Shown here piece by piece: positions 1 through 43,053 of a stretch of DNA of 64,000 nt. The notes beneath the pieces are model-generated. The model saw only the letters and a list, made by a program, of their open reading frames with translations. It did not search any database and was not told the origin of the DNA. Position 1 is the first letter of the stretch. Each line of letters begins with the position of its first letter. A program made the translations under genes and the position numbers. Source of the stretch: a virus; IMG/VR virus record IMGVR_UViG_3300015242_000025, positions 1 through 64,000 of that record; one strand, written 5' to 3'.

Positions 1-63
1 TACTTCATCATCGGTCAACTTGACTTCTACTGCTGATAGATCAACTGTCTTACCGCGTGCCAT
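1..63 (-). CDS. Unknown protein, N-terminal fragment (cut by window edge)
   Basis: Only the first 21 codons are inside the window; the protein begins MARGKTVDLSAVEVKLTDDE. The ATG follows a purine-rich GAAAGTGGG stretch that can serve as a ribosome binding site, and a good promoter lies just upstream on the same strand. Function cannot be judged from this fragment. Confidence 0.6.
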   Translation of the reverse strand, partial: MARGKTVDLSAVEVKLTDDEV

Positions 64-103
64 GATTTCCCACTTTCATCCGGGTGAACTGATATCGACT
101 CCG

Positions 104-132
104 ATGTTACACCACAATTGGCCAGCGTACAA
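104..132 (-). promoter_or_regulatory. Promoter for the leftward gene at the left edge
   Basis: On the minus strand TTGTAC is followed after 17 bases by TAACAT, close to the bacterial sigma-70 consensus with ideal spacing. It lies about 40 bases upstream of the ATG at 63, in the gap after the lipoprotein gene. Predicted from sequence only. Confidence 0.5.
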
Positions 133-233
133 CCCTACTGTGACGTAACTACTCAGCTTCTACATCTTACTAATTTTGATTGAATTATTTAATTATAGTA
201 ATTTGGATATGTTCTAAATGGACAACGCAATTG

Positions 234-252
234 CTAAACTAATTTAGTTTAG
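234..252 (-). repeat. Intergenic stem-loop after the lipoprotein gene
   Basis: CTAAACT and AGTTTAG form a 7-bp stem with a 5-nt loop. On the minus strand the loop is followed by GTTGTCCATTTA, which resembles the sequence after the stem-loop at 832-852. It belongs to the series of stem-loops between early genes in the first 5.4 kb. Confidence 0.6.
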
Positions 253-279
253 AAATTACGCAATCTTTTTAGATATTAT

Positions 280-783
280 TTACTCAGTAAGTGATACGTC
301 GGCTTTCAGTGCATGAGCAATAACAGGTGCCCACGCAACAGACATCCTGACGTAATAGGCATCCGATTTTGTCTCACCAGTCGGAGCATGACTCTGCAAT
401 GAAATTGCCCAGTTATCGCCAACGACTGCAATTCCACCCAAACTCTGAGATAGTTTAGCCCAGGCAACTAGGTCAGAATGCTTGCCAAACACATTGACGC
501 CAACAATTTCAGTGTCAGCACCTTGAGTAATAGGCAGTGAATAAGCAACGCCGCCCATGCCAGACAATAGACCCTGATCGGAGTCTTTAGCGATTCCGCC
601 AACTGTGAATTTATTGGTTTGTGTTAATGCTTTGGCTACATCATTAGCAGAATTGAAATGCGGCAGTGAAGTGGTATGCGCTACTGTGTGGCCGGTACCT
701 TTTGCCTGTGCTGTGCACGCTGCTACGGCAGCGCCCGCGAGAACAATCAACGCGGTAGCACTCAACAACTTTATTTTATTCAT
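280..783 (-). CDS. Phage lipoprotein, function unknown
   Basis: A 167-residue protein with a typical lipoprotein signal: positive N-terminus (MNKIK), a hydrophobic stretch of about 15 residues, and a lipobox V-A-A-C with the cysteine at residue 23. The mature part is soluble-looking and has no motif I recognise. The signal predicts export and lipid anchoring on the outer face of the host membrane. Phage lipoproteins of this kind often block superinfection or modify the envelope; that role here is inference. It is the penultimate gene of the leftward operon. Confidence 0.75.
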   Translation of the reverse strand: MNKIKLLSATALIVLAGAAVAACTAQAKGTGHTVAHTTSLPHFNSANDVAKALTQTNKFTVGGIAKDSDQGLLSGMGGVAYSLPITQGADTEIVGVNVFGKHSDLVAWAKLSQSLGGIAVVGDNWAISLQSHAPTGETKSDAYYVRMSVAWAPVIAHALKADVSLTE

Positions 784-831
784 GATTATTCCCGAAATTG
801 AGGTTAATTACTGTCCCTAATGGACAACAAA

Positions 832-852
832 AGCCACAGGGTCGCTGTGGCT
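832..852 (-). repeat. Intergenic stem-loop
   Basis: AGCCACAG pairs perfectly with CTGTGGCT around a 5-nt loop in the gap between two leftward genes. On the minus strand it is followed by TTTTGTTGTCCATTA. The dyad TGTCC-N4-GGACA lies just beyond it at about 812-826. Confidence 0.65.
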
Positions 853-873
853 AATGTAATTCATTAGGTATTG

Positions 874-1269
874 TTATGCAATACCAAAATGCAAGTCTGA
901 GAGAGCGGTATCCGCTGGATTCCAGCGAGTCATACCGTCAACACGATGCGGATTGAACGGTGCCCAGTAGGTCGGACGTACGCGCAGGAATTCGCGCATC
1001 TCATGGCATTCAATTTTCATCAGAACATCGGCAACTTGCCGATAAAGCGAAACATCATCACACGTAGCGACAACTAGCGGAAATGTTGCATACGTCATGA
1101 TCTCTTCTTTGTAGTCCGGTGCCAACTCCATATCAGAATTGCGGGCCGGATAGTCAATCTTAACGATGATCGCGCTTTCAAATCGATTCGTGTGATCGGT
1201 CGCTGTAATTTTCCAATCTGGCTTGTAACAGAGATTGTTGATAAGTTCGATTGCAGAGTCGACCCTCAT
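874..1269 (-). CDS. Hypothetical early protein
   Basis: Encodes 131 residues. The start MRVDSAIEL was chosen because AGGAAGGA lies at the right distance upstream; the longer reading begins 18 codons earlier without a ribosome binding site. The protein is soluble, mixed alpha/beta in character, with a Trp/Pro/Arg-rich segment near residues 95-115. I do not recognise a family. Neighbours are a lipoprotein and a conserved small actinophage-like protein in one leftward operon. Confidence 0.65.
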   Translation of the reverse strand: MRVDSAIELINNLCYKPDWKITATDHTNRFESAIIVKIDYPARNSDMELAPDYKEEIMTYATFPLVVATCDDVSLYRQVADVLMKIECHEMREFLRVRPTYWAPFNPHRVDGMTRWNPADTALSDLHFGIA

Positions 1270-1319
1270 GATTTCATTCCTTCCTAGATTCCTAGTATCT
1301 GCATCTAATGATGCAACAC

Positions 1320-1342
1320 GCACACCGAATTAATCGGTATGC
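1320..1342 (-). repeat. Intergenic stem-loop
   Basis: GCACACCGA and TCGGTATGC pair 8 of 9 positions around a short AT loop. On the minus strand the stem is preceded by TTGCAT and followed by GTGTTG, the same flanks as the stem-loops at 3390 and 3973. Confidence 0.6.
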
Positions 1343-1353
1343 ATGCAACACAA

Positions 1354-1770
1354 TTAGTCAGAGAAGTCATCCGGATGTAATGACTCAAATACTAGATCAT
1401 TGATAAGACGGGCTTTAATGGCTTTCAACCATTCGTTGTTGAGTTCCCCCCACGGGTAAAGCGATAATTTCCATCCATTGTTGAATCCATAATAAACAGC
1501 GGATTCTTCAGACATATCGCCTACCACAATGGATAGTCCCATAAGATAATCGGTGTGACTAAGGCGAAAATTTCGATGTCCCGCAGAGTCTGAATTTGGA
1601 AACAACTGGCCTAACACACACGTTTCAAATTCAGAGATATTGAAAGTTTCAACATTGATATAGCTAGCCCAGTCGGTACTACCAAACCGACTATCGAGCA
1701 ATTCCGCTCCGCGAGCAACAGCGGTTTGAACATCATCAGTCTGTAGATCCGTTTGCACTTCTGTAGTCAT
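1354..1770 (-). CDS. Small conserved phage protein (VARGAELLD type)
   Basis: Encodes 138 residues. The segment VARGAELLDSRFG near residue 18 and CVLGQLF near residue 51 match, from memory, a widespread small protein of actinobacterial phages whose function is unknown. The rest is rich in aromatic residues. The start is supported by GAGAGGAAA upstream. The protein has no membrane segment or signal. The family assignment is from recall and was not searched. Confidence 0.65.
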   Translation of the reverse strand: MTTEVQTDLQTDDVQTAVARGAELLDSRFGSTDWASYINVETFNISEFETCVLGQLFPNSDSAGHRNFRLSHTDYLMGLSIVVGDMSEESAVYYGFNNGWKLSLYPWGELNNEWLKAIKARLINDLVFESLHPDDFSD

Positions 1771-1831
1771 CTGAAAGATTTCCTCTCATCGTGACTGTCT
1801 CCTGTAGACAATCAACACAGCCAACCAAAAA

Positions 1832-1850
1832 ATCCTATAGTGTCTAGGAT
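1832..1850 (-). repeat. Intergenic stem-loop followed by a T-run
   Basis: ATCCTA and TAGGAT pair around a 7-nt loop. On the minus strand the stem is followed directly by six T residues and then by GTGTTGATTGTCTA, so this copy looks like an intrinsic terminator or attenuator as well as a member of the repeated module. Confidence 0.6.
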
Positions 1851-1869
1851 AATTGATTGACTATGCAAA

Positions 1870-2769
1870 TCAGCTACTGACAAGTTGTGCCTTGGTTGGG
1901 CGCTTACCAAAAGCAAACAACGGATCTTTATCGGAACGAGTGAGCGTTGCAGTGAATGTCACTGTTTTGTGTAGTAGTCGATCCTGCCAATTTCCGGACA
2001 GGTTGTATGCAGATACGGAGTCAATCAATGTGGAAGGAATGGTTACCCACACTGCCCAACCGTCAACTGTCTTCACAACCATTTTCCAAATGACTCCACC
2101 ATAGTAATTGTAATTATCCGGTTGATCTTTTATTGAGACAATTTCTCCGGTCACAGTAACTTTACCTTCTGGCGCTTGTACGCCAGATTTGACTAATGCA
2201 GCCTTATCGGCCTCACGCTTTTGTGTAATTGCGTAACGGGTGAACAGCCGGTCAATGGCGTTCTCAGCGGCGGATATTTGTCGCTCGGACATTACGCCTT
2301 TATCAAACAAGGCACGATTCATGTCGGCTAGAAATTCATTCCATTCATTGAATATCTCCGCAATATCGCCGTGAGCGATATAAGATAGCCACGCTAGTAC
2401 TGGGTGGTCATCGATAAGAGCATTGATTTTCTCATCGTGGGACTGCCTAGCCTTACGTGCTTTGTTTTCTTTGCGCTCTGCCTTATCAGCAAATCGCTTG
2501 TCATCACGGTCACGTACCCACATCGGAACTGAGTTTATTTCGATGTAGCCGCGCCCGTGGTTTTCTCCGCCACAAGAGCAATCACAGTCATGACCTGTAG
2601 CAAATTGACAGTCTGCATTGCACACAATGCCAGTGCTGAAATTGCCAGCAACAGTCATCACTGTAACGCGATTACCACAACGCGGGCACTCAACACGTAC
2701 ATGCTTCTGTTCAAATGACAATACAAATCCGCATTTGGTGCAGCTACCAACGGCTACTGTGTCCGTCAT
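1870..2769 (-). CDS. Zinc-ribbon protein, possibly nucleic-acid binding
   Basis: Encodes 299 residues from the ATG preceded by AAAGGA; a longer in-frame reading overlaps the upstream small gene and is less likely. The N-terminus has CTKC and CPRC pairs forming a zinc ribbon, then a second Cys cluster containing CNADC and CDCSCGG around residues 50-75, a motif I recall from actinophage proteins. A lysine/arginine-rich helix follows near residues 90-115, and the C-terminal half looks like a small beta domain. A nucleic-acid binding role is inferred. Confidence 0.65.
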   Translation of the reverse strand: MTDTVAVGSCTKCGFVLSFEQKHVRVECPRCGNRVTVMTVAGNFSTGIVCNADCQFATGHDCDCSCGGENHGRGYIEINSVPMWVRDRDDKRFADKAERKENKARKARQSHDEKINALIDDHPVLAWLSYIAHGDIAEIFNEWNEFLADMNRALFDKGVMSERQISAAENAIDRLFTRYAITQKREADKAALVKSGVQAPEGKVTVTGEIVSIKDQPDNYNYYGGVIWKMVVKTVDGWAVWVTIPSTLIDSVSAYNLSGNWQDRLLHKTVTFTATLTRSDKDPLFAFGKRPTKAQLVSS

Positions 2770-2780
2770 GGCTAATTCCT

Positions 2781-2891
2781 TTATCTCATCAGTTGAGCAA
2801 CGATAATTACGACACTTGCAATCGCAATAAAGCCAAGCAATGCGATTATGAACGTTGTGATAAACCATGATCTTGATAGATCGTTGTGCAT
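2781..2891 (-). CDS. 36-residue single-pass membrane protein
   Basis: A short gene reading MHNDLSRSWF and then an uninterrupted hydrophobic helix of about 22 residues, ending QLMR. GAGAGGAAT sits at the correct distance before the ATG, and the stop lies 11 bases before the next start, so it is likely translated. Function is unknown; it is one of several tiny membrane proteins in the leftward operons. Confidence 0.6.
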   Translation of the reverse strand: MHNDLSRSWFITTFIIALLGFIAIASVVIIVAQLMR

Positions 2892-3022
2892 CTGAATTCC
2901 TCTCACTTTGAATTATTACACCATAAGAGACAGCACCCAACAACAGCGTTTGATCGGACACTATCGCCACCCGTCGGATAGGCTCATGTTTGGCCTAGGG
3001 TACTGCCTCATAAAGTGCAATA

Positions 3023-3061
3023 ATTATAGTAGTCCGTTTACAGCATGTCCGGACAAACGAC
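3023..3061 (-). promoter_or_regulatory. Promoter with 30-bp element shared with 19.2 kb
   Basis: A minus-strand -10 TATAAT (3023-3028) lies 17 bases from a -35-like CGGACA (3046-3051). The spacer and upstream part contain GCTGTAAACGGAC and the palindrome TGTCCGGACA. The 30-base block 3032-3061 matches 19203-19232 at 27 positions. The surrounding gap (2892-3224) has no convincing gene. It would drive the membrane/Zn gene pair downstream. Confidence 0.55.
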
Positions 3062-3224
3062 ACTCACAGGCCAATTACAGAATGTAAGCTGATACATTCT
3101 CCTATTGTGTGCCGAGCACATTACATCTGTGACTTATAGCGGTGCTTTTAATGTTGGTTAGACTCTCCGTACTCTGGCCGCGCTTAATCAGGAGTCTCAT
3201 TACTGCACGGTAAAACCAACAATT

Positions 3225-3362
3225 CTAATTTTTTGTTACGTATACATGAACATTTGGACGTTCAATTCGCAATTGCTTGGCAATGTGTTGTGCCCATCTT
3301 TTTGTATACATACAAGTAGATGGAGTATTGCCACATACTACTTTCCATTGCTTTGATTCCAT
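3225..3362 (-). CDS. Small basic protein, unknown
   Basis: Encodes 45 residues starting MESKQWKVVCGN, chosen because GGAGGAG precedes this ATG. It is basic, has two cysteines, and ends VYVTKN. It resembles short phage proteins with a single small beta/alpha fold, but no family is recognised. It sits between two hairpin modules in the early operon. Confidence 0.55.
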   Translation of the reverse strand: MESKQWKVVCGNTPSTCMYTKRWAQHIAKQLRIERPNVHVYVTKN

Positions 3363-3389
3363 TTTTCTCCTCCATAGATAACCAACACT

Positions 3390-3413
3390 GCTACCCGGTT
3401 CGCAACGGGTAGC
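3390..3413 (-). repeat. Intergenic stem-loop with conserved flanks
   Basis: GCTACCCG and CGGGTAGC pair perfectly over 8 bp. On the minus strand the order is stop codon, ATTTGCATT, stem-loop, AGTGTTGGTTATCTA, GGAGGAG, ATG: the clearest example of the repeated intergenic module. Confidence 0.75.
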
Positions 3414-3421
3414 AATGCAAA

Positions 3422-3622
3422 TCATCTAGGAACGGCAGCATCTAGAAATTGTGCTTTGTCAAAATTGGGGTACTCAGTGGACAGCTTAGAAGACAGATCC
3501 CGTGTCAACTGCAATAGCGCTTCTGTGATGTGGAGAGCAATTGGCGTAGGAGATGAATAACGCTGCATCTGTTCGTTAAGTGTCGTTGCCAGCAATTGAT
3601 AGTCTTTACGAGTCATAGCCAT
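3422..3622 (-). CDS. Small conserved phage protein, unknown
   Basis: Encodes 66 residues, beginning MAMTRKDYQLLATTLNEQM. Helical, with the MTRKDY-like N-terminus that recurs in small early proteins of many tailed phages. AAAGGAATC precedes the start. No catalytic motif is seen. It is flanked on both sides by intergenic stem-loops. Confidence 0.65.
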   Translation of the reverse strand: MAMTRKDYQLLATTLNEQMQRYSSPTPIALHITEALLQLTRDLSSKLSTEYPNFDKAQFLDAAVPR

Positions 3623-3666
3623 GGTAAGATTCCTTTCATCTGCTATCCCTCATAGATAGTCAACGC

Positions 3667-3694
3667 GATTACGGAGCACAATCACTCCGTAATC
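3667..3694 (-). repeat. Intergenic stem-loop, perfect 10-bp stem
   Basis: GATTACGGAG and CTCCGTAATC pair over 10 bp. The minus-strand flanks are GATGCTTTGCGT before and GCGTTGACTATCTA after, variants of the common module. Confidence 0.75.
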
Positions 3695-3705
3695 ACGCAA
3701 AGCAT

Positions 3706-3852
3706 CTATGCCGACACTAAATTGATTTCAACGACTTTAGCGTCGGGATATTCGGCAGACATGATCTGCTTTAGCATCACCATGTCTTGCGCATAGGTTG
3801 TGTGTTTGATCAACAGACTGTCATGTTTGTTTGTAATTACCTGTAGATACAT
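3706..3852 (-). CDS. 48-residue early protein, unknown
   Basis: A short gene beginning MYLQVITNKHDSLL and ending VVEINLVSA, with AAAGGAAATG upstream. Its pattern, a strand, a helix around TYAQDMVMLKQIM, and a second strand, suggests a small alpha/beta protein. The strong ribosome binding site and tight fit between two regulatory stem-loops support coding. Function is unknown. Confidence 0.6.
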   Translation of the reverse strand: MYLQVITNKHDSLLIKHTTYAQDMVMLKQIMSAEYPDAKVVEINLVSA

Positions 3853-3882
3853 TATCATTTCCTTTCATCGTTTTAAATTACG

Positions 3883-3954
3883 TGCGGTATATCGGATTTG
3901 AACCGATACCATCAGTTTGGAAGACTGACGTGCTGCCATTAACACTAATACCGC
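3883..3954 (-). tRNA. tRNA-Gly (anticodon UCC)
   Basis: The minus strand folds into a 72-nt cloverleaf: acceptor GCGGTAT/ATACCGC, anticodon stem TCAGT/ACTGA around loop CTTCCAA giving UCC, and T-arm ATCGG-TTCAAAT-CCGAT. The discriminator base is A and CCA is not encoded. It would read GGA codons, which are frequent in this AT-rich genome. Confidence 0.95.
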
Positions 3955-3972
3955 TTGATAGACAATCAACAC

Positions 3973-3995
3973 CATTAACCGACTAGCGGTTAATG
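3973..3995 (-). repeat. Intergenic stem-loop with conserved flanks
   Basis: CATTAACCG and CGGTTAATG pair perfectly over 9 bp. The minus-strand flanks are GATGATTTGCAT before and GTGTTGATTGTCTA after. It separates the ArdC-like gene from tRNA-Gly. Confidence 0.75.
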
Positions 3996-4006
3996 ATGCA
4001 AATCAT

Positions 4007-4891
4007 CTATGCCGTGACTAGTTCTTTATCGTCGCTAGCTACGGTGTCTTGCGCGCTTCGGTTGAGTATGTAATTTGCTGCCCGTTGTGCGGCAGCGGCA
4101 GCGGTCACAACCGCTTTAGTGTCCTCTTGGATGGTGCGAATCCAGCCGGCAATATAGGCTGAATTCTGTTCGATCGTTTCGGGAAGGATTCCGGACTCAC
4201 CGTTAAGGAATGCTGCCGTCATTTCAGCAATCAATTCCTCACGACCATATTTGGCCGAACCAAAATGATCAAATTCAACGACGCCGGGACGATTCAAACG
4301 GCTTTCATGACCGGTTGAATGGCCCAACTCATGAAATGCAGTGGAGTAATACCGATTGACATCGGGAAAACTCTTCTTAGGCGGCAATGTCACAGTGTCA
4401 GTGTTCGACTTGTAATAAGCCGCACTGCCTGAGTGATTAACCGTTGGTCCGTCAGGATATCCGGCCAGAATGGATTCGGCCGACTCAATCGGTGAGAATT
4501 CTGATTCTTTGACTTCAGTGACCCTTGCCGGAACGTCAACGTTTTCGGTTTGGTCAAGGTTGTAAACCTTGTAGTAGCGCAAGTAAGCAAACTTGCGACT
4601 TTCGCCGGTTTCTTTGTCAATTCCGTCTATCATTTTCCAAAAGGTAATGATAGTTCCGTGTTGATTTGGCTTAAGGTTCCCGCCATGTTTTTTCATGGCA
4701 TTAAACGTCATCCAAATTTTGGACTTATATTCCTGTACTAGCAAAAGGAACACATTCAGTCCCGTGTAGCGGTGGCCGTCAATCGAGCGCGGCGCGTCGG
4801 CTGCATCCCACGGCTTGCGCCATGGCACGGTGCCCTCTTGCAACGATTTGACAACCTGATCGGTGATAATTTCATACACCTTGTCAGTCAT
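4007..4891 (-). CDS. ardC: ArdC-type antirestriction protein
   Basis: A 294-residue protein with the two-part architecture of ArdC/TraC-like proteins: an N-terminal ssDNA-binding domain (about 1-115, including PWRKPW near residue 24) and a zincin-like metallopeptidase domain with HELGH at residues 187-191 and a downstream EELIAEMTAAF helix that can supply the third zinc ligand. Family members protect incoming DNA from host restriction, and the phage is expected to use it early in infection. Its place near the start of the leftward early operon fits this. C-terminal Ala-rich helix; full length. Confidence 0.9.
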   Translation of the reverse strand: MTDKVYEIITDQVVKSLQEGTVPWRKPWDAADAPRSIDGHRYTGLNVFLLLVQEYKSKIWMTFNAMKKHGGNLKPNQHGTIITFWKMIDGIDKETGESRKFAYLRYYKVYNLDQTENVDVPARVTEVKESEFSPIESAESILAGYPDGPTVNHSGSAAYYKSNTDTVTLPPKKSFPDVNRYYSTAFHELGHSTGHESRLNRPGVVEFDHFGSAKYGREELIAEMTAAFLNGESGILPETIEQNSAYIAGWIRTIQEDTKAVVTAAAAAQRAANYILNRSAQDTVASDDKELVTA

Positions 4892-4944
4892 CTTAATTTC
4901 CTAACCTCTAATAGATAACTGATTGTCGGTAGACAACCAACACT

Positions 4945-4965
4945 GACAACCGGCGGCCGGTTATC
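4945..4965 (-). repeat. Intergenic stem-loop with conserved flanks
   Basis: GACAACCGG pairs with CCGGTTATC with one mismatch. The minus-strand flanks are CTTGCATT before and AGTGTTGGTTGTCTA after, as in the other modules. Confidence 0.7.
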
Positions 4966-4977
4966 AATGCAAGTTAG

Positions 4978-5250
4978 CTACTTCATGTACGCGAAACTAC
5001 GCGGATTGTCAGCAATAAATCTCACGCAATACTCGATTGACTCGTAACTGTCAAGCCATGCAGCATAGACGCGCCTTGCCTTAAGTGCCGACAGGTTATA
5101 CGTGACCCGAATTGTTGCCAGGAATAACCGTTGGCTGTTTGCGTAGACTGGGCTGTCAGATTGTGCGATTGTGTAGTCCCAATTTGTGGATATAGCAAAA
5201 TGCACATCTGCAACTTGCTGGCATAGCTCTTGATTAGTTGGCATGGTCAT
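4978..5250 (-). CDS. Hypothetical early protein, first gene of the left operon
   Basis: Encodes 90 residues beginning MTMPTNQELCQQVADVHFAI; the start follows TAAGGAATTCACC, while the longer open frame upstream overlaps the leader. Mainly helical, with a conserved-looking segment AWLDSYESIEYCVRFI. No known family. It is the first gene downstream of the promoter at 5561-5588 and so probably expressed earliest. Confidence 0.6.
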   Translation of the reverse strand: MTMPTNQELCQQVADVHFAISTNWDYTIAQSDSPVYANSQRLFLATIRVTYNLSALKARRVYAAWLDSYESIEYCVRFIADNPRSFAYMK

Positions 5251-5293
5251 GGTGAATTCCTTAGGTCTCGTCAGCGCAGCCAAATAGCTACGG

Positions 5294-5315
5294 ACACGGT
5301 TTTGATCAACCGTGT
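5294..5315 (-). repeat. Leader stem-loop before the first early gene
   Basis: ACACGGTT and AACCGTGT pair over 8 bp. It lies in the untranslated leader between the predicted promoter and the gene at 4978-5250. Its flanks differ from those of the intergenic module. Confidence 0.6.
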
Positions 5316-5403
5316 TTCGACCTTTCATTGTGCACGCTGCGCGTCCGCGCATGCTATGCATTTGGCTCGGCGGTTCCTAGTCGCCCGTTAGCTACCGGCC
5401 AAA

Positions 5404-5426
5404 TCTCGCGGTTCGCGTCCGCGAGA
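5404..5426 (-). other. GC-rich hairpin in the leader of the left operon
   Basis: TCTCGCGG and CCGCGAGA pair over 8 bp around TTCGCGT. The arm resembles a tRNA T-arm, but no acceptor or anticodon arm fits around it. It is probably an RNA structure in the roughly 300-nt leader between the promoter near 5575 and the first gene. Confidence 0.5.
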
Positions 5427-5560
5427 ACGAATAGAGTAGGGTGACAGCTTGGTTCTCAGGGCAAGATGGACGCGCGCGATAATGATCGCCTGCTGGCCAA
5501 AATGCGGAGCGCTGGACCCCTATGCAATTTTCGATCTTGCTGTGCGGTGGAACTACACTT

Positions 5561-5588
5561 AGCCTATCAGTCGATTCTCAAAAGTCAA
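5561..5588 (-). promoter_or_regulatory. Promoter of the leftmost early operon
   Basis: On the minus strand TTGACT is followed after 16 bases by TAGGCT, matching TTGACA and TANNNT consensus elements. A second TTGACT lies 9 bases further upstream. It precedes the leftward operon beginning at 5250 and leaves a long structured leader. Confidence 0.55.
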
Positions 5589-5689
5589 TAGTCAAAATAG
5601 CTGAAACCGGACTTTGAAAGATTACGGTTAGGTAACGATAGTCAATGTCTGATTAATGTTCATCATACCCAAATCATGGACCCCTCATG

Positions 5690-5850
5690 TCCGTTTATCA
5701 AGATCATCTTAGGCGCCTAGCGGTCGGTCCGGGTCGGCGTCGCTGGCCAGCGCGACCGGCTGTGTGCCCCGCTGCCAGTCTGGACCGCCCCGTGCGCGTT
5801 AGCGTACCCGCCGGCATGGGAGAGGCTTCTAAAACTTCGTTTCATCAGCT
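5690..5850. other. GC-rich non-coding island
   Basis: A stretch much richer in G+C than its surroundings, with palindromes TAGGCGCCTA (near 5710) and CGCTGGCCAGCG (near 5740) and further hairpins. Short open frames cross it but lack ribosome binding sites. It lies in the 900-bp gap between two leftward operons. Possible roles are a structured RNA, a protein-binding site or remnant DNA; none can be chosen. Confidence 0.4.
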
Positions 5851-5869
5851 AACGATCCTTGTATGTACG

Positions 5870-6162
5870 TAATGTCCGATTCACTCGAGGTCGCCCGTCC
5901 CTGGCAAACTGGACATGACTTGTGCTGGCCCTGAGAGCAATGCTGAGAGCTTTGGGTATGACTTGGATGCAATCCCTTTGCCTATGTGATTTGATCGCTC
6001 TCCGTTGACTGACCACATATATAAGGGATTCCTACAGAGCAATTCAGACATCAATGTCATAACTTCATCTATCGGTCTATATGTGTTGATCTATTTTGGA
6101 CAGACAACATCGTTTATCAAATTTCCTATACGATTTTTTGATAACGTTTTCCCAATTTTCAT
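5870..6162. repeat. Non-coding block sharing three ordered motifs with 30.06-30.16 kb
   Basis: Contains TAATGTCCGATTCACTCGAG (5870), CAAACTGGACA (5905) and GTTTTCCCAATTTTCAT (6146). The same three motifs occur in the same order at 30059-30163, there more closely spaced. In translation both blocks begin MSD-x-LE and contain QTGH, so one could be a decayed copy of a small gene. No intact gene is evident here. Confidence 0.5.
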
Positions 6163-6182
6163 ATTTTCTACATGATTTTGAG

Positions 6183-6593
6183 TCACTCAATTGGAACAGT
6201 ACTAAACTTAAATCGAGATGTGGGAATGTTTGCAGCCTCCGCAAAGTCAGCGCACTTAGTTGCACCACGTGAATTGTCAAGGATGAATGCAAGACATTTA
6301 TCTGCGCCAAGTGAAACCATAAACTTATTGCGTATTTGTCCTGCAGCTTTACCTATCACTCGCCACTGTACCGATGTAACTTTGTGCGGTTCATGTTCCC
6401 ATGGTTCGCCTAATTCGTTTTTATGATAAAGTGCACATTGTTTTGCTGTTTGATCTCCTCCACTAGCATCACCATGAACAATAGTAATAAGTTCATTCTT
6501 TTTAGCCAAACTTGCGACTAATTCAATTTCTCGCCACATAAAATTATTATCAGCAGCTGGCCATGTACGACTAGCTGTTATGAGAATTCTCAT
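6183..6593 (-). CDS. DUF2493 / SLOG-fold protein (YspA-like)
   Basis: Encodes 136 residues. MRILITASRTW at the N-terminus and IVHGDASGGDQTAKQCA at about residues 45-60 are the nucleotide-binding motifs of the cpYpsA-related SLOG family (DUF2493), whose members bind nucleotide or NAD-derived ligands. The start ATG overlaps the preceding stop as ATGA, indicating coupled translation. Last gene of the long leftward operon. Function in phages is not established; it may sense or process a nucleotide signal. Confidence 0.8.
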   Translation of the reverse strand: MRILITASRTWPAADNNFMWREIELVASLAKKNELITIVHGDASGGDQTAKQCALYHKNELGEPWEHEPHKVTSVQWRVIGKAAGQIRNKFMVSLGADKCLAFILDNSRGATKCADFAEAANIPTSRFKFSTVPIE

Positions 6594-6775
6594 TTTAATG
6601 TCAATTCCCAACTTGGATCATCTACTTCCAAGGTTAATATAAAGTCTCCATCAATATGCTCAGCATTAAGTACTTTTCCAATTCCTTTGTTAGTATTAAA
6701 ACTTTGTCCAATTAAATCTTGTAAAGCTCCATCTGTCCATTGTTTATCATTGTGATAATATAATTTAACTTTCAT
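6590..6775 (-). CDS. Small hypothetical protein
   Basis: Encodes 61 residues (MKVKLYYHNDKQWTDGAL...), predicted mostly beta. It overlaps its neighbours on both sides by ATGA junctions, which supports both start and coding status. No family recognised. Confidence 0.6.
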   Translation of the reverse strand: MKVKLYYHNDKQWTDGALQDLIGQSFNTNKGIGKVLNAEHIDGDFILTLEVDDPSWELTLK

Positions 6776-6894
6776 TTTCTATGCCTCCCTGGACGTAAAT
6801 AATTACCGACACGTTTACCTACATACTTTGCTAGAAATATTGCAGGAATTAGAATGATGATTAACACTAATGTTAATACATCATAGATATGCAT
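6772..6894 (-). CDS. 40-residue membrane protein
   Basis: Reads MHIYDVLTLVLIIILIPAIF followed by a basic tail ending RPGRHRK. One strongly hydrophobic helix with a positive C-terminal end predicts a single-pass protein with its tail in the cytoplasm. The ATG lies two bases after the upstream stop and the stop overlaps the next start (ATGA). Function unknown. Confidence 0.6.
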   Translation of the reverse strand: MHIYDVLTLVLIIILIPAIFLAKYVGKRVGNYLRPGRHRK

Positions 6895-6896
6895 TG

Positions 6897-7139
6897 TCAC
6901 TCTACTTGATACCAGAAATGCGTTTTAGATTTTCCCTGACGTTTACCTATCTGAACTTTTCCAGATTTACGTAAACGATTAAGCGATTGATACGTTAATG
7001 AATGCGATAAATTAAATACGTCAGCTATTTCAGGTAATGTCATTGGTTGGCTTAAAACATCATACACAGCTCTGTCACGCTCGATTGTTGCCTGTAAACG
7101 TGGTCTACCGTACGTGCATTCAATGTCACCACTAGTCAT
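6897..7139 (-). CDS. Winged-helix DNA-binding protein
   Basis: Encodes 80 residues from MTSGDIECTYG, a start preceded by GGGGATGATC; four codons upstream lies a weaker ATG. The core PMTLPEIADVFNLSHSLTYQSLNRLRKSGKV is a helix-turn-helix plus wing as in small MarR/ArsR-like regulators. It probably regulates phage or host transcription. It follows the epimerase gene by a few bases in the same operon. Confidence 0.7.
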   Translation of the reverse strand: MTSGDIECTYGRPRLQATIERDRAVYDVLSQPMTLPEIADVFNLSHSLTYQSLNRLRKSGKVQIGKRQGKSKTHFWYQVE

Positions 7140-7152
7140 GATCATCCCCATT

Positions 7153-8148
7153 TTAATATTGTCCCTTTACCTGATCATAAATCCATTCATAGGTTGTTTC
7201 AATACCTGATCGTAACGAAGTTGTCGGTTCCCAACCAATTTTAGCTTTAATGAGAGAACTATCGCTATTACGTCCGCGAACACCCTGCGGTTTATCCAGT
7301 TGATAATATCGAGTTAATTTAACATTAGCAATTTCTTCAATTATATCTAGCAATCCATTGATAGAAATTAATTCTTCACTACCAACATTAAATGGATAAA
7401 AATAATTACTATTTGTAATTTTAATAGTACCATCTACACAATCATCTACATAAAGGAATGAACGTGTTTGCTCTCCATCTCCCCATATATCGATAGTGTG
7501 ATCTTTAGTAATAACAGCTTGCGCTACTTTACGGCACAATGCAGCGGGAGCCTTTTCATGTCCATCATTCCAACTACCATGCGGACCAAAAATATTATGA
7601 TAACGTCCAATACGAGTTTGTAAATGACGCTCTATGTTATGACATTGCATAACATGTTCACCATAAAGTTTTTCCCAACCATACCCCGGTTCTGGGTCGG
7701 CAGGAATAGCAAAGTCTTCACGTAATGCACCGACATTAGGATTAATCTGTGCCCATTGTGGATAGACACATGCAGAAGATGAAAAGAAAATACGTTGATC
7801 AGTCTGACACATATTTAACAATGCAATGGTGTCAACAATATTTTCACTACACTTCACAAGATGATTAGTGATGTAACCTATTCCACCCATGTTAGCGGCT
7901 AAATGATAAACATCATCAATAATACCAAGAGAAAACATACTTTCATTTAAATCACGTACAGAAATACTGTAATTATTAGCACGATGATGAAGTTGCCACC
8001 AACGATTAATTGGTTTAATATCTACAGCAAAAACATTATGTCCATTGTTCAAAAGTTTTTTAACTAAGTGTCCGCCAATAAATCCCCCCGCTCCAGTGAC
8101 GAGAATATTCCTACTTCGTAAATTAGCATCACTTTCTGTCCATGCCAT
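7153..8148 (-). CDS. GDP-mannose 3,5-epimerase-like SDR enzyme
   Basis: A 331-residue extended SDR protein. Residues 18-25 form the NAD-binding TGAGGFIG loop. The signature residues of GDP-D-mannose 3,5-epimerase (plant GME, bacterial BlmG-like) are all present: NMGGIGYI near 86, SSACVYP with Cys127, YGWEK with Tyr156 and Lys160, EKAPAALCRK with Lys199, and VRGRNSD near the C-terminus. The enzyme would convert GDP-D-mannose to GDP-L-galactose or GDP-L-gulose. The start one base after the upstream stop excludes a longer overlapping reading. It is coupled to a nucleotide-sugar dehydrogenase gene. Confidence 0.9.
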   Translation of the reverse strand: MAWTESDANLRSRNILVTGAGGFIGGHLVKKLLNNGHNVFAVDIKPINRWWQLHHRANNYSISVRDLNESMFSLGIIDDVYHLAANMGGIGYITNHLVKCSENIVDTIALLNMCQTDQRIFFSSSACVYPQWAQINPNVGALREDFAIPADPEPGYGWEKLYGEHVMQCHNIERHLQTRIGRYHNIFGPHGSWNDGHEKAPAALCRKVAQAVITKDHTIDIWGDGEQTRSFLYVDDCVDGTIKITNSNYFYPFNVGSEELISINGLLDIIEEIANVKLTRYYQLDKPQGVRGRNSDSSLIKAKIGWEPTTSLRSGIETTYEWIYDQVKGQY

Positions 8149-37777: not shown

Positions 37778-38002
37778 ATGACTACAATCAAAACAATAAA
37801 TTATAAAGAGAATGACCTTGATAAGATTAAAAAATATTTTAAGGATTTACAAACAGACGGCGAACATGCGACACTGTCTGAAGTGGACGCCATTTTAGAA
37901 TCGGCGCAATTATGTTGGCCACACTCAGCCGATCGTATGACATTTATTGATACTGTACTAGATTTTCGTTCTATTCTCACTACATTAAAAGGAATTAGTT
38001 AA
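37778..38002 (+). CDS. Small hypothetical protein
   Basis: Encodes 74 residues, highly charged and helical, ending LTTLKGIS. GGGGGACCA precedes the start. One base overlap with the next gene. Unknown function. Confidence 0.55.
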   Translation: MTTIKTINYKENDLDKIKKYFKDLQTDGEHATLSEVDAILESAQLCWPHSADRMTFIDTVLDFRSILTTLKGIS

Positions 38003-38691
38003 TGATTTCTATTTGTTGTCCTACGCGTAAGCGTCCACAAAATATGAATAGAATTATTACCTCTGCTGAACAGACAGCGCCAAATGGCGGATTTGAATTT
38101 GTGTTCTATGTAGACAGCGATGATCAGGAGAGTATTAACTTTCCATTATTGACTGATCATCAAAGAATTATTGGTGATCGAATTGTACTTTCTGAGATGT
38201 GGAATGTTTGTGCTCGTCATGCTAATGGTGATATTTTTATGCATTGCGGTGATGACATTATTTTTCGCTCTCCCGGTTGGGTAGATATTGTTGAGAGAGT
38301 TTATAATGAAGCTGTACCAGATAAAATTGCTTTAGTTCATGGTGATGATGGATTATGGGGAGCATCGTTTGGAACTCATTGTTTTGTATCTCGTACTTGG
38401 GTTGATGCGTTAGGTTATTTGTGTCCTCCGTATTTTTCTTCAGATTGGAATGATACATGGTTAAATGAATTAGGTAATGCACTTAATCGTCGTTACTATT
38501 TCCCTGATATTGTTACAGAGCATATGCATCCTGTTGTTGGAAAAGCAGGTTGGGATGAAACACATCTAGATAGACAAGCTCGCGGTCTACGTGATAACGT
38601 TGATGAAATTTATAAATCACCAGATATGGTAGAAGCACGTAAAATAGATTACGAAAAACTCTTGAAGGTGATTAATGACAACCGTTCCTAA
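38002..38691 (+). CDS. Glycosyltransferase family 2-like protein (1)
   Basis: Encodes 229 residues. ISICCPTRKRPQNMNRII at the N-terminus, VFYVDSDDQ near 35 (D-x-D-like), and GDIFMHCGDDIIF near 90 are GT-A fold signatures of GT2 enzymes that transfer sugar from a nucleotide-sugar donor. The His-rich C-terminal region (TEHMHPVVGKAGWDETH) is typical of phage homologues. First of four related genes around 38-43.6 kb. Confidence 0.75.
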   Translation: MISICCPTRKRPQNMNRIITSAEQTAPNGGFEFVFYVDSDDQESINFPLLTDHQRIIGDRIVLSEMWNVCARHANGDIFMHCGDDIIFRSPGWVDIVERVYNEAVPDKIALVHGDDGLWGASFGTHCFVSRTWVDALGYLCPPYFSSDWNDTWLNELGNALNRRYYFPDIVTEHMHPVVGKAGWDETHLDRQARGLRDNVDEIYKSPDMVEARKIDYEKLLKVINDNRS

Positions 38692-39316
38692 GTGGACTAT
38701 TCTTATTGCCACATTGGGACAACGACGTACAAAATTTGAACACTTGATGATGGAATTACTTCCACAGGTTGATAAAGTAAATGGATTAGTAACGGTACAT
38801 GCATTCTGGAATAATGGTGAACGTCCGTTATCCTATGTACGTCAAGATTTATTAGAAAGTGCTGAATCAGAATACGTATCTTTTGTTGATGATGATGACG
38901 GTATACCTGATTATTTTGTTTCTAAGGTATTACCATTATTAGATGGTGTTGATTACATTGGTTGGATGATGCAGTGTTATGCAAGTAGTGTAAAGCTTAA
39001 TCCAACTGAACATAGTTTGAAACATAATAGATGGTGGAGTGATTCTGTTGGCTATTATCGAGATCTTAGTCATCTAAATCCAATTAAACGAGAAATTGCA
39101 TTATTAGTAAATTATAAAAATACAAGTCCTCCAGAAGATGCTAGTTGGGTAGAGCAAATGAGAGGAAAGGTAAATACTGAACATTTTATTGATGATATTA
39201 TGTATTATTACTATTCAACATCTGATTCAACTTGGCGCGGTGGAGATTCTATAAATAGACAACAAACATTTCAACGCGCTAATATTAATAATTCAAATTT
39301 TAAATGGATTGAATAA
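38675..39316 (+). CDS. Glycosyltransferase family 2-like protein (2)
   Basis: Encodes 213 residues. WTILIATLGQRRTKFEHLM and ESEYVSFVDDDDGIPDYFV carry the GT-A nucleotide-binding loop and DDDD metal site. Starts within the end of the preceding gene. Short C-terminal half compared with typical GT2 enzymes but otherwise complete. Probably transfers a sugar made or modified by the neighbouring SDR enzyme. Confidence 0.78.
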   Translation: MTTVPKWTILIATLGQRRTKFEHLMMELLPQVDKVNGLVTVHAFWNNGERPLSYVRQDLLESAESEYVSFVDDDDGIPDYFVSKVLPLLDGVDYIGWMMQCYASSVKLNPTEHSLKHNRWWSDSVGYYRDLSHLNPIKREIALLVNYKNTSPPEDASWVEQMRGKVNTEHFIDDIMYYYYSTSDSTWRGGDSINRQQTFQRANINNSNFKWIE

Positions 39317-40261
39317 ATGACTATCTTATTAACTGGCGCTGGTGGTTTTGTAGGTAGTCATGTGTTAGAATCTCTATTAGCTAATACAGATTATGATATT
39401 ATATGTACTGATTCTTTTAATCATAATGGTAGTATGGATAAAATTGTTGATATTTGTAAATCTCGTTCAGCTTTTGATAGAGTTGAAGTAATAACACATG
39501 ATTTAACAGTGCCATTTTCTCGAGTTCAGAAATTAAAAATAAAAGAGTCTAATTATATAATTAATGTTGCTTCTAAGTGTCAAGTAGATGAAAGTATTCA
39601 TACCCCTGAATCTTTCATACTTAACAATGTTAAACTAATTGTTAATATGCTAGAAACTGCAAGAGAGTTAAATTTAACATCATTTATACAGATGTCAACC
39701 GATGAAGTATACGGACCACATGAACCAATTAGACATAATCCATCTAGTCCGTACTCAGCATCAAAAGCTGCACAAGAAGATATATGTAATTCATATTTTC
39801 GTACATTTAAAATTCCAGTAACTATTATCAATAGTTGTAATCTGATTGGAGAAAGACAAAGTAATTTAGCTTTTGTACCTCAAGTAATCAGTAAAATTCT
39901 CGATGAAGAAACTATTTCCATACATCAACATAATGGAATTATTGGAAAACGTAATTATACTTATGTTAAAAACGTATCTAACTTTATTTCATATTCAACA
40001 TTAAATAGACTATATCTTCCCATAAGAATTCCACTGCAGGGACAAGTAACTATTGATAATTTACAACTTGTAAAACACATATCTGCTATTATCGGTAAAA
40101 AATTTGAATACAGGTTAGATGATGTTGCACACATACGGCCTGGGTATGATGTGAAGTATGATGTACTTCCTTATGATAAAAGGTGGATTCCAGAAATAGA
40201 TTTTTATGGAGGTTTACAGTACACAGTAGATTGGTTTATGGGAAACAAGGAATGGTTATAG
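39317..40261 (+). CDS. Nucleotide-sugar 4,6-dehydratase/epimerase (SDR)
   Basis: Encodes 314 residues. TGAGGFVGSHV (about 6-16) binds NAD; MSTDEVYG and SPYSASKAAQE supply the catalytic Thr/Asp/Glu and Y-x3-K; the C-terminal HIRPGYDVKYDV is the RmlB-type signature. Likely makes a 4-keto-6-deoxy sugar nucleotide. Begins one base after the stop of the upstream glycosyltransferase gene. Confidence 0.85.
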   Translation: MTILLTGAGGFVGSHVLESLLANTDYDIICTDSFNHNGSMDKIVDICKSRSAFDRVEVITHDLTVPFSRVQKLKIKESNYIINVASKCQVDESIHTPESFILNNVKLIVNMLETARELNLTSFIQMSTDEVYGPHEPIRHNPSSPYSASKAAQEDICNSYFRTFKIPVTIINSCNLIGERQSNLAFVPQVISKILDEETISIHQHNGIIGKRNYTYVKNVSNFISYSTLNRLYLPIRIPLQGQVTIDNLQLVKHISAIIGKKFEYRLDDVAHIRPGYDVKYDVLPYDKRWIPEIDFYGGLQYTVDWFMGNKEWL

Positions 40262-40263
40262 AT

Positions 40264-41025
40264 ATGAAAGAAAATTTTTTCCTAGAACAGGCTGAAGCAT
40301 GGAAAAATATTCCTATAGATGATGTAGGATATTTTAATACTGAAGAATTAATGATGAAGTCTGATGATGTCTTAAAGAAAATGATTATTGATATGGAGAA
40401 AATAAGATATAATGAAGGTTATCGTAACTGGGGTAATAAATGGCGTAGTACTTTAAAACTTGACACGACTCATGGTAAACGTGTTTTAGATTATGGTTGT
40501 GGATCAGGTATAGAAGCTTTACAATATGCTAAAACTGGTAATCATGTTTACCTTGCTGATATCAATGCAAGTAATATTTCACTTGCAGAAAAAATATTAA
40601 AAGTATTTGGATTTAAACCTATACATTCCTATTTAATTACAAATGTTTATCCATTCACTGGAGCTATAACAAATAAATTTGATATTGTTCATATGAATGG
40701 AGTATTACATCACATATTTCAGCCATATCCTGTTGTACGAGCTATTCATGAATCACTTATTAATGATGGTGAATTAAGGTTAATGTTATATTCAGATATT
40801 GCATGGAGAATAGCAACTAATACAGAGCCTCCAGAAGATGTTACTAATAACCCTATGAGAAAAACTTTTGTTCGTACAATGGACGGTGTTGGAGAGTGGG
40901 CAGATTGGTATGATGCTGATAGAATAGAAAAAAGATTTGGTAGTTTATTTACAATTGAAGAATTTTCCTATATTACTTCAGATGATAGATATTGTACCGC
41001 TATTTTAAAACGAAAGGAAATTTAA
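40264..41025 (+). CDS. SAM-dependent methyltransferase
   Basis: Encodes 253 residues from MKENFFLEQ. VLDYGCGSGIEALQYAK (motif I, about 78-94), VYLADINASNI (acidic loop) and FDIVHMNGVLHHI (motif IV) define a class I methyltransferase. Placement between a sugar dehydratase and glycosyltransferases suggests it methylates a sugar. GGAATGGTT lies upstream; a Met four codons earlier is possible. Confidence 0.85.
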   Translation: MKENFFLEQAEAWKNIPIDDVGYFNTEELMMKSDDVLKKMIIDMEKIRYNEGYRNWGNKWRSTLKLDTTHGKRVLDYGCGSGIEALQYAKTGNHVYLADINASNISLAEKILKVFGFKPIHSYLITNVYPFTGAITNKFDIVHMNGVLHHIFQPYPVVRAIHESLINDGELRLMLYSDIAWRIATNTEPPEDVTNNPMRKTFVRTMDGVGEWADWYDADRIEKRFGSLFTIEEFSYITSDDRYCTAILKRKEI

Positions 41026-41026
41026 A

Positions 41027-41290
41027 ATGACTGATACATTTTTTGCTAAAGGTTTTGCTATGAATAATTCAGCACAAAAAATTCTTGATATTGCTGATTT
41101 GGATAGAACATTGTTAGTTACTGGAGATCAATTAGCTGTTGGATATGATGATACCGTATATGACACAAGCGGTATTTTATTAATAAATAATATTCCTTAT
41201 ACATTAGTTTTACCTGCAGGATATGAATTTTGGGCTAAAGGACCAACAGATACTAATTTATTTATTTGGGTAGGCGGAAGTACTTCATAA
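41027..41290 (+). CDS. Small beta-rich protein
   Basis: Encodes 87 residues ending TNLFIWVGGSTS. Alternating hydrophobic strands suggest a small beta-sandwich that may be a virion or binding protein. AAAGGAAATTTAAA precedes the start. No family recognised. Confidence 0.55.
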   Translation: MTDTFFAKGFAMNNSAQKILDIADLDRTLLVTGDQLAVGYDDTVYDTSGILLINNIPYTLVLPAGYEFWAKGPTDTNLFIWVGGSTS

Positions 41291-41291
41291 T

Positions 41292-41498
41292 ATGTCTGAT
41301 TATAAAGCTAAATACGGTAATCCTTTTGGCCCTAATTCCTATGACAATGTTAAACGACGTACAGATATGATTATGTCTGTTGAGGAAAAAATTAATCTGC
41401 AACGAAAAATAATTCCTGATCATATTCGTATGGTTGTTGAGGAACAAAACCGAGCCATTGAATTTATGAAGAAATGGAATAAAGAACATGGAATTTAA
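41292..41498 (+). CDS. Small helical protein
   Basis: Encodes 68 residues, MSDYKAKYGNPFGPNSYDNV then long basic helices. Overlaps the next gene by 11 bases. Unknown function. Confidence 0.55.
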   Translation: MSDYKAKYGNPFGPNSYDNVKRRTDMIMSVEEKINLQRKIIPDHIRMVVEEQNRAIEFMKKWNKEHGI

Positions 41499-42396
41499 AT
41501 ATGGAAAGCGTTCACCAAAAAATGCACCGGCAATCTCTTTAAGTTCTATCATATCTACTATTGTTATTCCAACACAGGAGGATTATTTATCTCAACTTTC
41601 TGGAAGTTGGGATATGTTGGGGAATGATCAATACGGAGATTGCGTAGCTGTGACATGGGCAAATGTTCGACGCTTCATGGTCGGTGGTCAAAGTTATCCT
41701 TCTTTAGACGATGTTATTAAACTATATAAAACACAAAATCCAAATTTCCCAAGCGATGATAATGGAATGGATATTCAAACTTGCTTAGAATATCTTATTC
41801 ACAACGGCGGTCCAGACGGAATTTTTCCAGTAGCTTTTGCTAAAGTTAATCATGCTGACCTACAGGAAGTTCAGCAAGCATTAGCTATCTTTGGTTATAT
41901 TTGGACAGGAATTAATGTATTAGCTGTTAATGAAACTGAATTTGATCAAGGACAACCTTGGAATTATGTTAACAATTCACCAAGTGTTGGCGGTCACTCT
42001 GTCATCAGCGGTGGGTATGATTCTGGTTATGTTGATTTTATTACGTGGGCACAAGAAACAAAGTTTACTGATGATTATTGGAAATATGAAGTAGATGAAG
42101 CATGGGTAGTTATTTGGCCAGAACATTTTTCACATGCTCCGTTTTTAAATGGTGTAGATCAAGCTGCATTAGCGGATTATTATCAGCACTTAACTGGTAA
42201 TCCACTTCCGTTACCAAATCCAACTCCTACGCCAATTCCTGTACCAACTCCAGGCGCCGCCCCCTTTCTGGGCTGTGATCCGTATGTGGCTGCACAAATT
42301 GAAAGAGTGGCTAATAAACACAATGTCACTACGTCATCATGGATGAACAAACACTTCACTACCTATTTTCGTGATAGCGCAGGATGGAAGAATTAA
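41488..42396 (+). CDS. Papain-like cysteine peptidase, endolysin or virion type
   Basis: Encodes 302 residues. MLGNDQYGDCVAVTWANVRR has the catalytic cysteine at 52; SVGGHSVISGGYDSG has the histidine at 170, followed by FITWAQE in place of the usual N/D-containing strand. Actinophages carry such NDxYGDC proteins as peptidases. A Pro-rich linker (PNPTPTPIPVPTPG) leads to a C-terminal domain with one cysteine. May cut peptidoglycan peptides together with the lysin at 35.2 kb, or act on host proteins. Confidence 0.75.
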   Translation: MEFKYGKRSPKNAPAISLSSIISTIVIPTQEDYLSQLSGSWDMLGNDQYGDCVAVTWANVRRFMVGGQSYPSLDDVIKLYKTQNPNFPSDDNGMDIQTCLEYLIHNGGPDGIFPVAFAKVNHADLQEVQQALAIFGYIWTGINVLAVNETEFDQGQPWNYVNNSPSVGGHSVISGGYDSGYVDFITWAQETKFTDDYWKYEVDEAWVVIWPEHFSHAPFLNGVDQAALADYYQHLTGNPLPLPNPTPTPIPVPTPGAAPFLGCDPYVAAQIERVANKHNVTTSSWMNKHFTTYFRDSAGWKN

Positions 42397-43053
42397 ATGT
42401 TTAAAGGAATAGATTGTACTGTTGTAATACCAACTATTGAAGGACGCGAGGAATTGTGTACTCGCGCTATTAAATCTGTGAATAGTCAAACTATTTTCCC
42501 TAAAGATGTTATTGTTATTCCAGACCATGAACGTAAAGGCGCAGCTTTTGCACGTAATTTAGGTCTGTCCAAAGTAGATACTGCTCTGACTCTTTGGTTA
42601 GATGATGATGATGAGTTTTTACCTAATCATGTGAAGATTCTTTTAAAAGCAATTAATCGCACCGGTGCTGATTTAGTTTTCTCTTACCCTGAAATTGTCG
42701 GTGGACGTGATCCACTTGCATGCCTCAACAACCAGGGTGAATTAATTAAAGAACCTATTAACATTCCTTTCGGTGCAATGCAAGAAATGAGTTTACGTAG
42801 GCTTGGCGGATTCATTCCTGTAACTTATATGATAAAAACTGAAATAGCTAAAAAAGTCGGTGGAATGCCTGAACCATATTCTTTTCATACTACGCATTCT
42901 AATGATTGTGAAGATTATCTTTTTCTAATTAAGTTGCTTGATGCTGGAGCTAAATTCTATCATGTTTGCGGTGTTCGTACTTGGAAGTATAATTTACATG
43001 ATGGTAATCTAGGTGGCCGTGGTCTAAATAGAATGAATGAAATGGGTAAATAA
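42397..43053 (+). CDS. Glycosyltransferase family 2-like protein (3)
   Basis: Encodes 218 residues. CTVVIPTIEGREELCTRAIKSV and ALTLWLDDDDEFLPNHV give a classical GT-A domain with DDDD metal site; ERKGAAFARNLGLS is the conserved N-terminal helix. C-terminal segment CEDYLFLIKLLDAG binds the acceptor side. One base overlap with the next glycosyltransferase gene. Confidence 0.85.
   Translation: MFKGIDCTVVIPTIEGREELCTRAIKSVNSQTIFPKDVIVIPDHERKGAAFARNLGLSKVDTALTLWLDDDDEFLPNHVKILLKAINRTGADLVFSYPEIVGGRDPLACLNNQGELIKEPINIPFGAMQEMSLRRLGGFIPVTYMIKTEIAKKVGGMPEPYSFHTTHSNDCEDYLFLIKLLDAGAKFYHVCGVRTWKYNLHDGNLGGRGLNRMNEMGK

Follow-up and report, generated by a model that had tools for sequence, protein, structure and literature searches.

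The stretch analysed here, hereafter the window, comprises 64,000 nucleotides (nt) of a 67,475-base virus record of IMG/VR (IMGVR_UViG_3300015242_000025), in which leftward early and replication genes occupy 0 to 24.9 kb and are followed by rightward, mostly structural genes. At its left end, eight copies of one RNA element, a hairpin with a conserved core in the middle of its stem, span positions 210 to 4983, all on the minus strand and placed at almost every early-gene boundary of that interval. The copies are listed below together with the tRNA gene lying among them and an ordinary hairpin near 5.3 kb; bits are covariance-model (cmsearch) scores, z refers to folding relative to shuffled sequences, and the offset gives the position of the upstream stop codon relative to the base of the helix.

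5292–5317, minus strand: hairpin of ordinary type, outside the family; fold z −2.7
4925–4983, minus strand: element 1, between gene 4978–5262 and the ArdC-like gene 4007–4891; 61.5 bits, z −6.5; the UAG stop of the upstream gene is the helix base, offset 0
3954–4012, minus strand: element 2, between the ArdC-like gene and the tRNA-Gly gene; 68.5 bits, z −6.4; UAG stop at the helix base, offset 0
3882–3954, minus strand: tRNA-Gly(UCC), directly downstream of element 2; identified by ARAGORN and by Rfam (tRNA, 66 bits)
3648–3711, minus strand: element 3; 60.4 bits, z −9.0; the UAG stop of gene 3706–3858 is the helix base, offset 0
3370–3431, minus strand: element 4; 62.6 bits, z −7.8; UGA stop of gene 3422–3622 located 4 nt inside the basal arm (UAGAUGA), offset +4
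1800–1879, minus strand: element 5, carrying an extra apical hairpin; 57.0 bits, z −5.4; UGA stop of gene 1870–2769 located 4 nt inside the basal arm, offset +4
1301–1359, minus strand: element 6, basal helix CUAAU/AUUAG; 63.2 bits, z −6.2; UAA stop of gene 1354–1770 at the helix base, offset 0
812–870, minus strand: element 7, basal helix CCUAAUG/CAUUAGG; 55.7 bits, z −4.9; the weakest pairing in context; stop of gene 874–1269 located 9 nt upstream of the usual place
210–274, minus strand: element 8, basal helix CUAAA/UUUAG; 59.1 bits, z −8.0; stop of gene 280–783 located 11 nt upstream of the usual place

A covariance model run with filters off over the 64 kb returned exactly eight matches, scoring 55.7 to 68.5 bits with E values of at most about 1e-12, and the next independent match reached 14 bits. 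Each copy folds 4.9 to 9.0 standard deviations below dinucleotide shuffles, and when folded in a context of about 360 nt, seven of the eight hairpins form with a mean pair probability of 0.77 to 0.98, copy 7 being weaker (0.57). A descriptor specifying no sequence except the U·G pair and the U×U mismatch of the core recovered seven of the eight copies and nothing further in the 64 kb, shuffled sequences giving 0 to 1. A preliminary description of this DNA had reported stem-loops at intergenic sites whose stems are unrelated in sequence yet paired, which the covariance model and the folding scores bear out. It had counted nine of them; what was probably the ninth, the hairpin at 5292–5317, possesses neither the U×U core nor the flanking arms and is missed by the covariance model, so that the family numbers eight in the window. 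Searched for on their own, the flanks give weak signals, with 31 matches to GATTTGCAT (one mismatch) against 38 expected, and 15 matches to GTTGATTGTCTA (two mismatches) against 8.6 expected. The signal resides in the structure and the core rather than in the flank sequence alone.

The architecture consists of a basal helix of about 8–10 bp, a near-invariant core, an upper stem of 9–13 bp that may be of any sequence, and a loop. The core reads 5'-UUGCRU / GYGUUG-3' and includes a U·G pair and a U×U mismatch. The flanks pair with each other, (UAG)AUGAUU-U-GCAU facing GUGU-U-GAUUGUCUA; they are thus conserved, as had been proposed, but not single-stranded, since both are paired arms of the basal helix. 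Going upwards, the basal helix is followed by U·G, the U×U mismatch, G·U, C-G, A-U (or G-C) and U·G, and then by at least nine pairs of any sequence, which together make one continuous imperfect helix of 19–29 bp (median 23) with the U×U core in mid-stem.

Aligned by MAFFT without any structural input, the eight window copies all fall in the same register, and the basal helices of copies 6 to 8, although different in sequence, are again complementary. In these eight copies, 91.2% of the cells are in standard pairs, compared with 31–47% when the partner is slid by one to three columns; 18 of the 25 pairs have changed on both sides, and the observed score was not attained in any of 500 shuffles. 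Extending the comparison to 42 copies from seven phages gives 88% of cells paired and 312 cells changed on both sides, compared with 104 in shuffles; in each of the 40 copies with both letters present, the U×U mismatch is T/T. That the hairpin structure is under selection, as the preliminary description had suspected, is strongly supported, both by this covariation and by orthologous gene boundaries with changed stems, to which we return below.

The strand on which the element acts can be read from its core. The pairing cells of the core include 104 G·U and no A·C, 94% of them being paired in the sense orientation and 43% in the antisense one, and antisense copies score 14–18 bits, as opposed to 55–68 bits for the sense copies. 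The presence of G·U without A·C indicates that the element functions as coding-strand RNA. A site acting at the DNA level was ruled out, as the pairing of the core exists only in the sense-strand RNA. Nor is the earlier idea of protein-binding DNA sites similar to stoperators supported, because the core pairs mostly by G·U on one strand and the stoperator pattern occurs at chance level. Stoperators of cluster A mycobacteriophages are also numerous intergenic repeats in an actinophage genome, but they are short asymmetric DNA sites for a repressor, whereas the present element acts as RNA; a search for GGTGGMTGTCAAG, which we take to be the stoperator consensus, gave 2 matches against 1.66 expected. 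Integron sites of the attC type, considered without a formal test, were set aside, as only G·U pairing makes the core arms complementary.

With regard to the genes, the elements sit between co-directional early-type genes, element 2 directly preceding the tRNA. An upstream gene is detectable for 37 copies. Its stop codon (UAG, UAA or UGA) constitutes the first three conserved helix pairs in 25 of them and is shifted from this place, by −11 to +4 nt, in the remaining 12. The next start codon, as assigned by a simple ribosome-binding-site rule, is found mostly 6–36 nt past the helix. This arrangement brings to mind a translation-termination element, in which a terminating ribosome would open the basal helix and meet the upper stem, the hairpin then blocking post-termination sliding or gating re-initiation and thereby insulating the genes. 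The stop codon indeed occupies an identical helix position in those 25 copies, whichever of the three codons is used and with a covarying partner, and the core begins 8–9 nt past the first base of the stop, which would place it near the leading edge of the ribosome. Such a role nevertheless sits poorly with the 12 displaced stops and leaves the near-invariant U·G/U×U core, as well as the copy before the tRNA (3882–3954), unexplained, and we consider it unlikely. Stable hairpins immediately after stop codons could also be pure 3'-end stabilisers or folding spacers of the REP-like kind, with no cleavage at the core, but plain hairpins would suffice for this purpose and the conserved U×U core and outer helix would be needless, which makes this option very improbable.

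Attenuators had been listed among the possible functions in the preliminary description, and neither they nor terminators find support here. The helix is followed by no U-tract, the next 12 nt containing on average 1.8 T, and terminator-like sites are not enriched (6 against 5.9 expected). Promoter-like sites number 16 against 12.4 ± 3.3 expected, and none is consistently located beside the hairpins. The PeSL cassettes of T4-like phages are likewise repeated intergenic stem-loops amid small early genes and, according to papers that cite them (e.g., PMC4503421), join a promoter of the early type to a terminator stem-loop. The present element differs in showing no promoter excess and no U-tract, and in often having the next start too close for a promoter to fit in between. 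Inverted repeats between actinophage genes, upstream of starts, are also known from cluster K mycobacteriophages, where the ESAS repeats are conserved in sequence and occur together with SAS, a start-associated motif of 13 bp (PMC3203893). The present repeats, by contrast, vary in sequence and are tied to the stop codon, and the search for the SAS motif GGGATAGGAGCCC gave no match with up to two mismatches allowed. In the features tested, the element therefore differs from terminators, PeSLs, SAS/ESAS and stoperators.

A covariance model built from the copies and a search of related phages, both advocated in the preliminary description, led to further phages carrying the element with its conserved core. 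IMGVR_UViG_3300044464_000029 (G001), found by a pattern scan, harbours about 10 copies in its left 8.4 kb, and IMGVR_UViG_3300036773_000046 (G009), found by a terminase search, harbours about 11–12 copies in an early region of higher GC content, with UGA stops and a UGAUC/GAUCA helix base. The tRNA-Gly beside element 2 is 86.7% identical to that of the cultured Streptomyces phage BRock, which was searched because of this resemblance and possesses at least 10 copies, mostly among early genes at 4.2–11.3 kb, with others near 34 kb. The Streptomyces phages Alone3, LuckySocke and pSt2308 and the metagenomic phages G257 and G258 also carry the element. The sequence-free descriptor finds 7 copies in the window (all on the minus strand), 9 in G001 and 17 in BRock, against 0 to 1 in shuffles. 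Copy numbers in BRock-like phages are lower bounds, as the covariance model R2 gives low scores to diverged cores; some copies in these phages (loci L164 at 4–11 kb, L166 and L168) have a diverged core, for example UUUCAG/CUGUG, with U·G and U×U kept. In G009, a tRNA-like stretch (locus L073, about 7325–7390, plus strand; GCCAGC...TTCGATTCCCC...GCTGGCA), recognised by neither ARAGORN nor Rfam, directly follows a hairpin and parallels the window tRNA after element 2.

Pattern scans of viral contigs yielded mostly chance matches, with 1 true copy among 37 loci, and a looser scan gave, among the matches listed, two clear phages and one borderline match. Forty-eight IMG/VR records of terminase relatives, many of them fragments, produced a single weak match (G003, E value 0.003), and the element is therefore no general feature of the terminase clade of the window. 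Close relatives were sought via the protein encoded at 1870–2769, and none was found. The control phages OnionKnight, DSL-LC01, Wilde, phiC31, T7 and T4 gave no model match at E values up to 5, and the best match in Phendrix had an E value near 2. Host genomes (5 Streptomyces and 200 Streptomycetaceae, one being in both sets) gave no match among the part of the candidates that was scored, a search from which weak copies could escape. According to BLASTP, G000 and G009 are related (42 open reading frames (ORFs) with matches), and G001 and BRock share with them a few proteins only, mostly of generic replication type. Since the element occurs in lineages with almost no common proteins, it is not tied to the surrounding genes.

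Across these lineages, the core is conserved everywhere and the sequence of the upper stems is close to random. A U·G/U×U hairpin with entirely different stems is kept at orthologous boundaries of BRock, Alone3 and pSt2308 (e.g., after gp5/218/81, gp17/210/74 and gp22/70), and boundaries without a clear copy also occur in this group, e.g., after gp19. The BRock early region has a single megablast match to Alone3, LuckySocke and pSt2308, a complete hairpin of about 67 bp with 88–91% identity, the neighbouring proteins being about 50% identical. These data bear on the suggestion that the elements are boundaries of exchangeable gene cassettes, whose repeated arms would offer short stretches of homology by which early genes could be shuffled, in line with a proposal made for PeSL cassettes. 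The repeats do stand at nearly all small early-gene boundaries, their arms are alike within a genome while the stems differ, and the element often provides the stop codon. However, homology alone would not maintain compensatory pairing or G·U on one strand, and elements at orthologous boundaries with different stems look inherited rather than shuffled. Recombination may occur as a side effect; as the function of the element, it is hardly probable.

Within a phage lineage, the basal arms resemble each other more than they do across lineages (0.60 versus 0.46 shuffled), as would be expected if each phage had its own reader, and the core UUGCRU/GYGUUG is near-invariant in a helix that otherwise varies freely. 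Both features would suit a site for a specific RNA-binding protein of host or phage origin that reads the core, for instance an early-gene regulator or an antitermination complex loading at each gene. Yet no candidate protein is common to the lineages, and a Pfam scan of 50 window proteins, including the leftward half, revealed no obvious RNA-binding regulator; moreover, antitermination normally relies on one site per operon and not on one per gene. We regard a role of this kind as doubtful.

By analogy with the T7 early sites, we propose, with about even confidence, that the elements are sites where host RNase III cuts polycistronic early mRNA; of the functions listed in the preliminary description, RNA processing, with cleavage being presumed, offers the best fit. 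An early polycistronic transcript, whose genes are presumably co-transcribed, would fold into an imperfect duplex of about 23 bp at each gene end, the upper helix making up about 12–13 bp of it. A host endoribonuclease specific for double strands, most likely RNase III, would then cut at or near the weak core, dividing the early mRNA into single-gene pieces and releasing the tRNA. If this cut were made on the 3' side of the core, the upper hairpin would remain on the upstream mRNA and protect its 3' end, and the next gene would receive a short unstructured leader, usually of about 6–36 nt, both of which may influence stability and translation. The upper stems may differ so that the copies neither pair nor recombine with one another. 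No RNase III gene was found in six element-bearing phages, and one is present in a Streptomyces genome; given the occurrence of the element in unrelated phages and the lack of a phage RNase III, a host enzyme would be the economical reader.

RNase III targets have been documented in T7, T3 and lambda RNAs (PMC5371410). The T7/T3 sites (R0.3, R0.5, R1, R1.1 and R1.3) are, like the present elements, long imperfect hairpins between early genes, and their processing is carried out by the host enzyme rather than by a phage enzyme, as proposed here. Folded around what we take to be the early RNase III cut positions, the T7 sites display a similar lower stem, central interruption, upper stem of 9–13 bp and small loop. 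Imperfect hairpins of about 20 bp or more, interrupted in mid-stem, are thus found in both cases, the present ones measuring 19–29 bp (median 23). In T7, the stem is interrupted in most cases by a larger internal loop, in contrast with the U·G and U×U of the present element, which further differs in its basal helix usually starting at the stop codon, in its larger number of copies per genome, in its unrelated upper stems and in the presumptive nature of its cleavage. The element thus resembles T7 RNase III sites in anatomy and might, on this analogy, belong with them.

Several observations weigh against this proposal. RNase III usually requires no conserved core sequence, and a U·G/U×U core that is near-invariant hints at a reader of greater specificity; the conservation of the core was partly chosen by the model itself, although the sequence-free descriptor nonetheless recovers the arrays. 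To our knowledge, the coincidence of a stop codon with the base of the helix is no feature of RNase III sites, and this anchoring (25 of 37 copies) may point to a translation-linked role. Furthermore, the T7 sites have no sequence match to the covariance model, R2 finding nothing in T7 and the descriptor nothing in the T7 early region, and R0.7, one of six T7 positions tried, gave no clear hairpin. RNase III sites share little sequence, so such resemblance is not strictly defining. RNase III alone does not explain the stop anchoring and the core, and a translation-linked role or a specific RNA-binding protein stays in contention alongside RNase III processing. Tentatively, and with less confidence than in RNase III processing, we can also envisage a new class of phage structured RNA, namely a U×U-cored hairpin that is anchored to the stop codon and recurs where genes end in unrelated actinophages, for which a dedicated host or phage reader would couple translation termination to the cutting or insulation of individual genes, instead of a plain RNase III site.

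An Rfam scan of window positions 1–7000 returned the tRNA alone at E values up to 1, and the element is neither described in the BRock genome paper nor found in the open literature searched, in agreement with the initial impression that no named element has this form. If the proposal is correct, a previously undescribed RNA element would be common to phages that share almost no genes and probably exploit one host machine, and actinophages would split their early messages gene by gene, like T7. The element occurs in cultured Streptomyces phages and is thus experimentally accessible at once. It could be used directly as a part for balancing the expression of several genes in Streptomyces, or as a marker tying metagenomic phages to actinobacterial hosts.

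Other features of the region deserve mention. The ArdC-like antirestriction protein (4007–4891, minus strand), with the Pfam domains ArdcN and MPTase-PolyVal, is encoded within the hairpin array. The gap at 2895–3226 (minus strand, 330 nt), which carries neither an element nor a convincing gene, folds strongly (z −3.7) and, among the promoter-like matches in this region, contains the best one, CGGACA-17-TATAAT at 3051–3023; it is possibly a structured leader or a small RNA with its own promoter. Upstream of the array, about 0.9 kb (5300–6170) is apparently non-coding and locally GC-rich, and could be the early promoter region. Finally, ORFs resembling glycosyltransferases, NAD-epimerases and methyltransferases, named by reading the sequences only, lie amid the structural genes at 38002–43622, and several ORFs of this cluster have homologues in G009.

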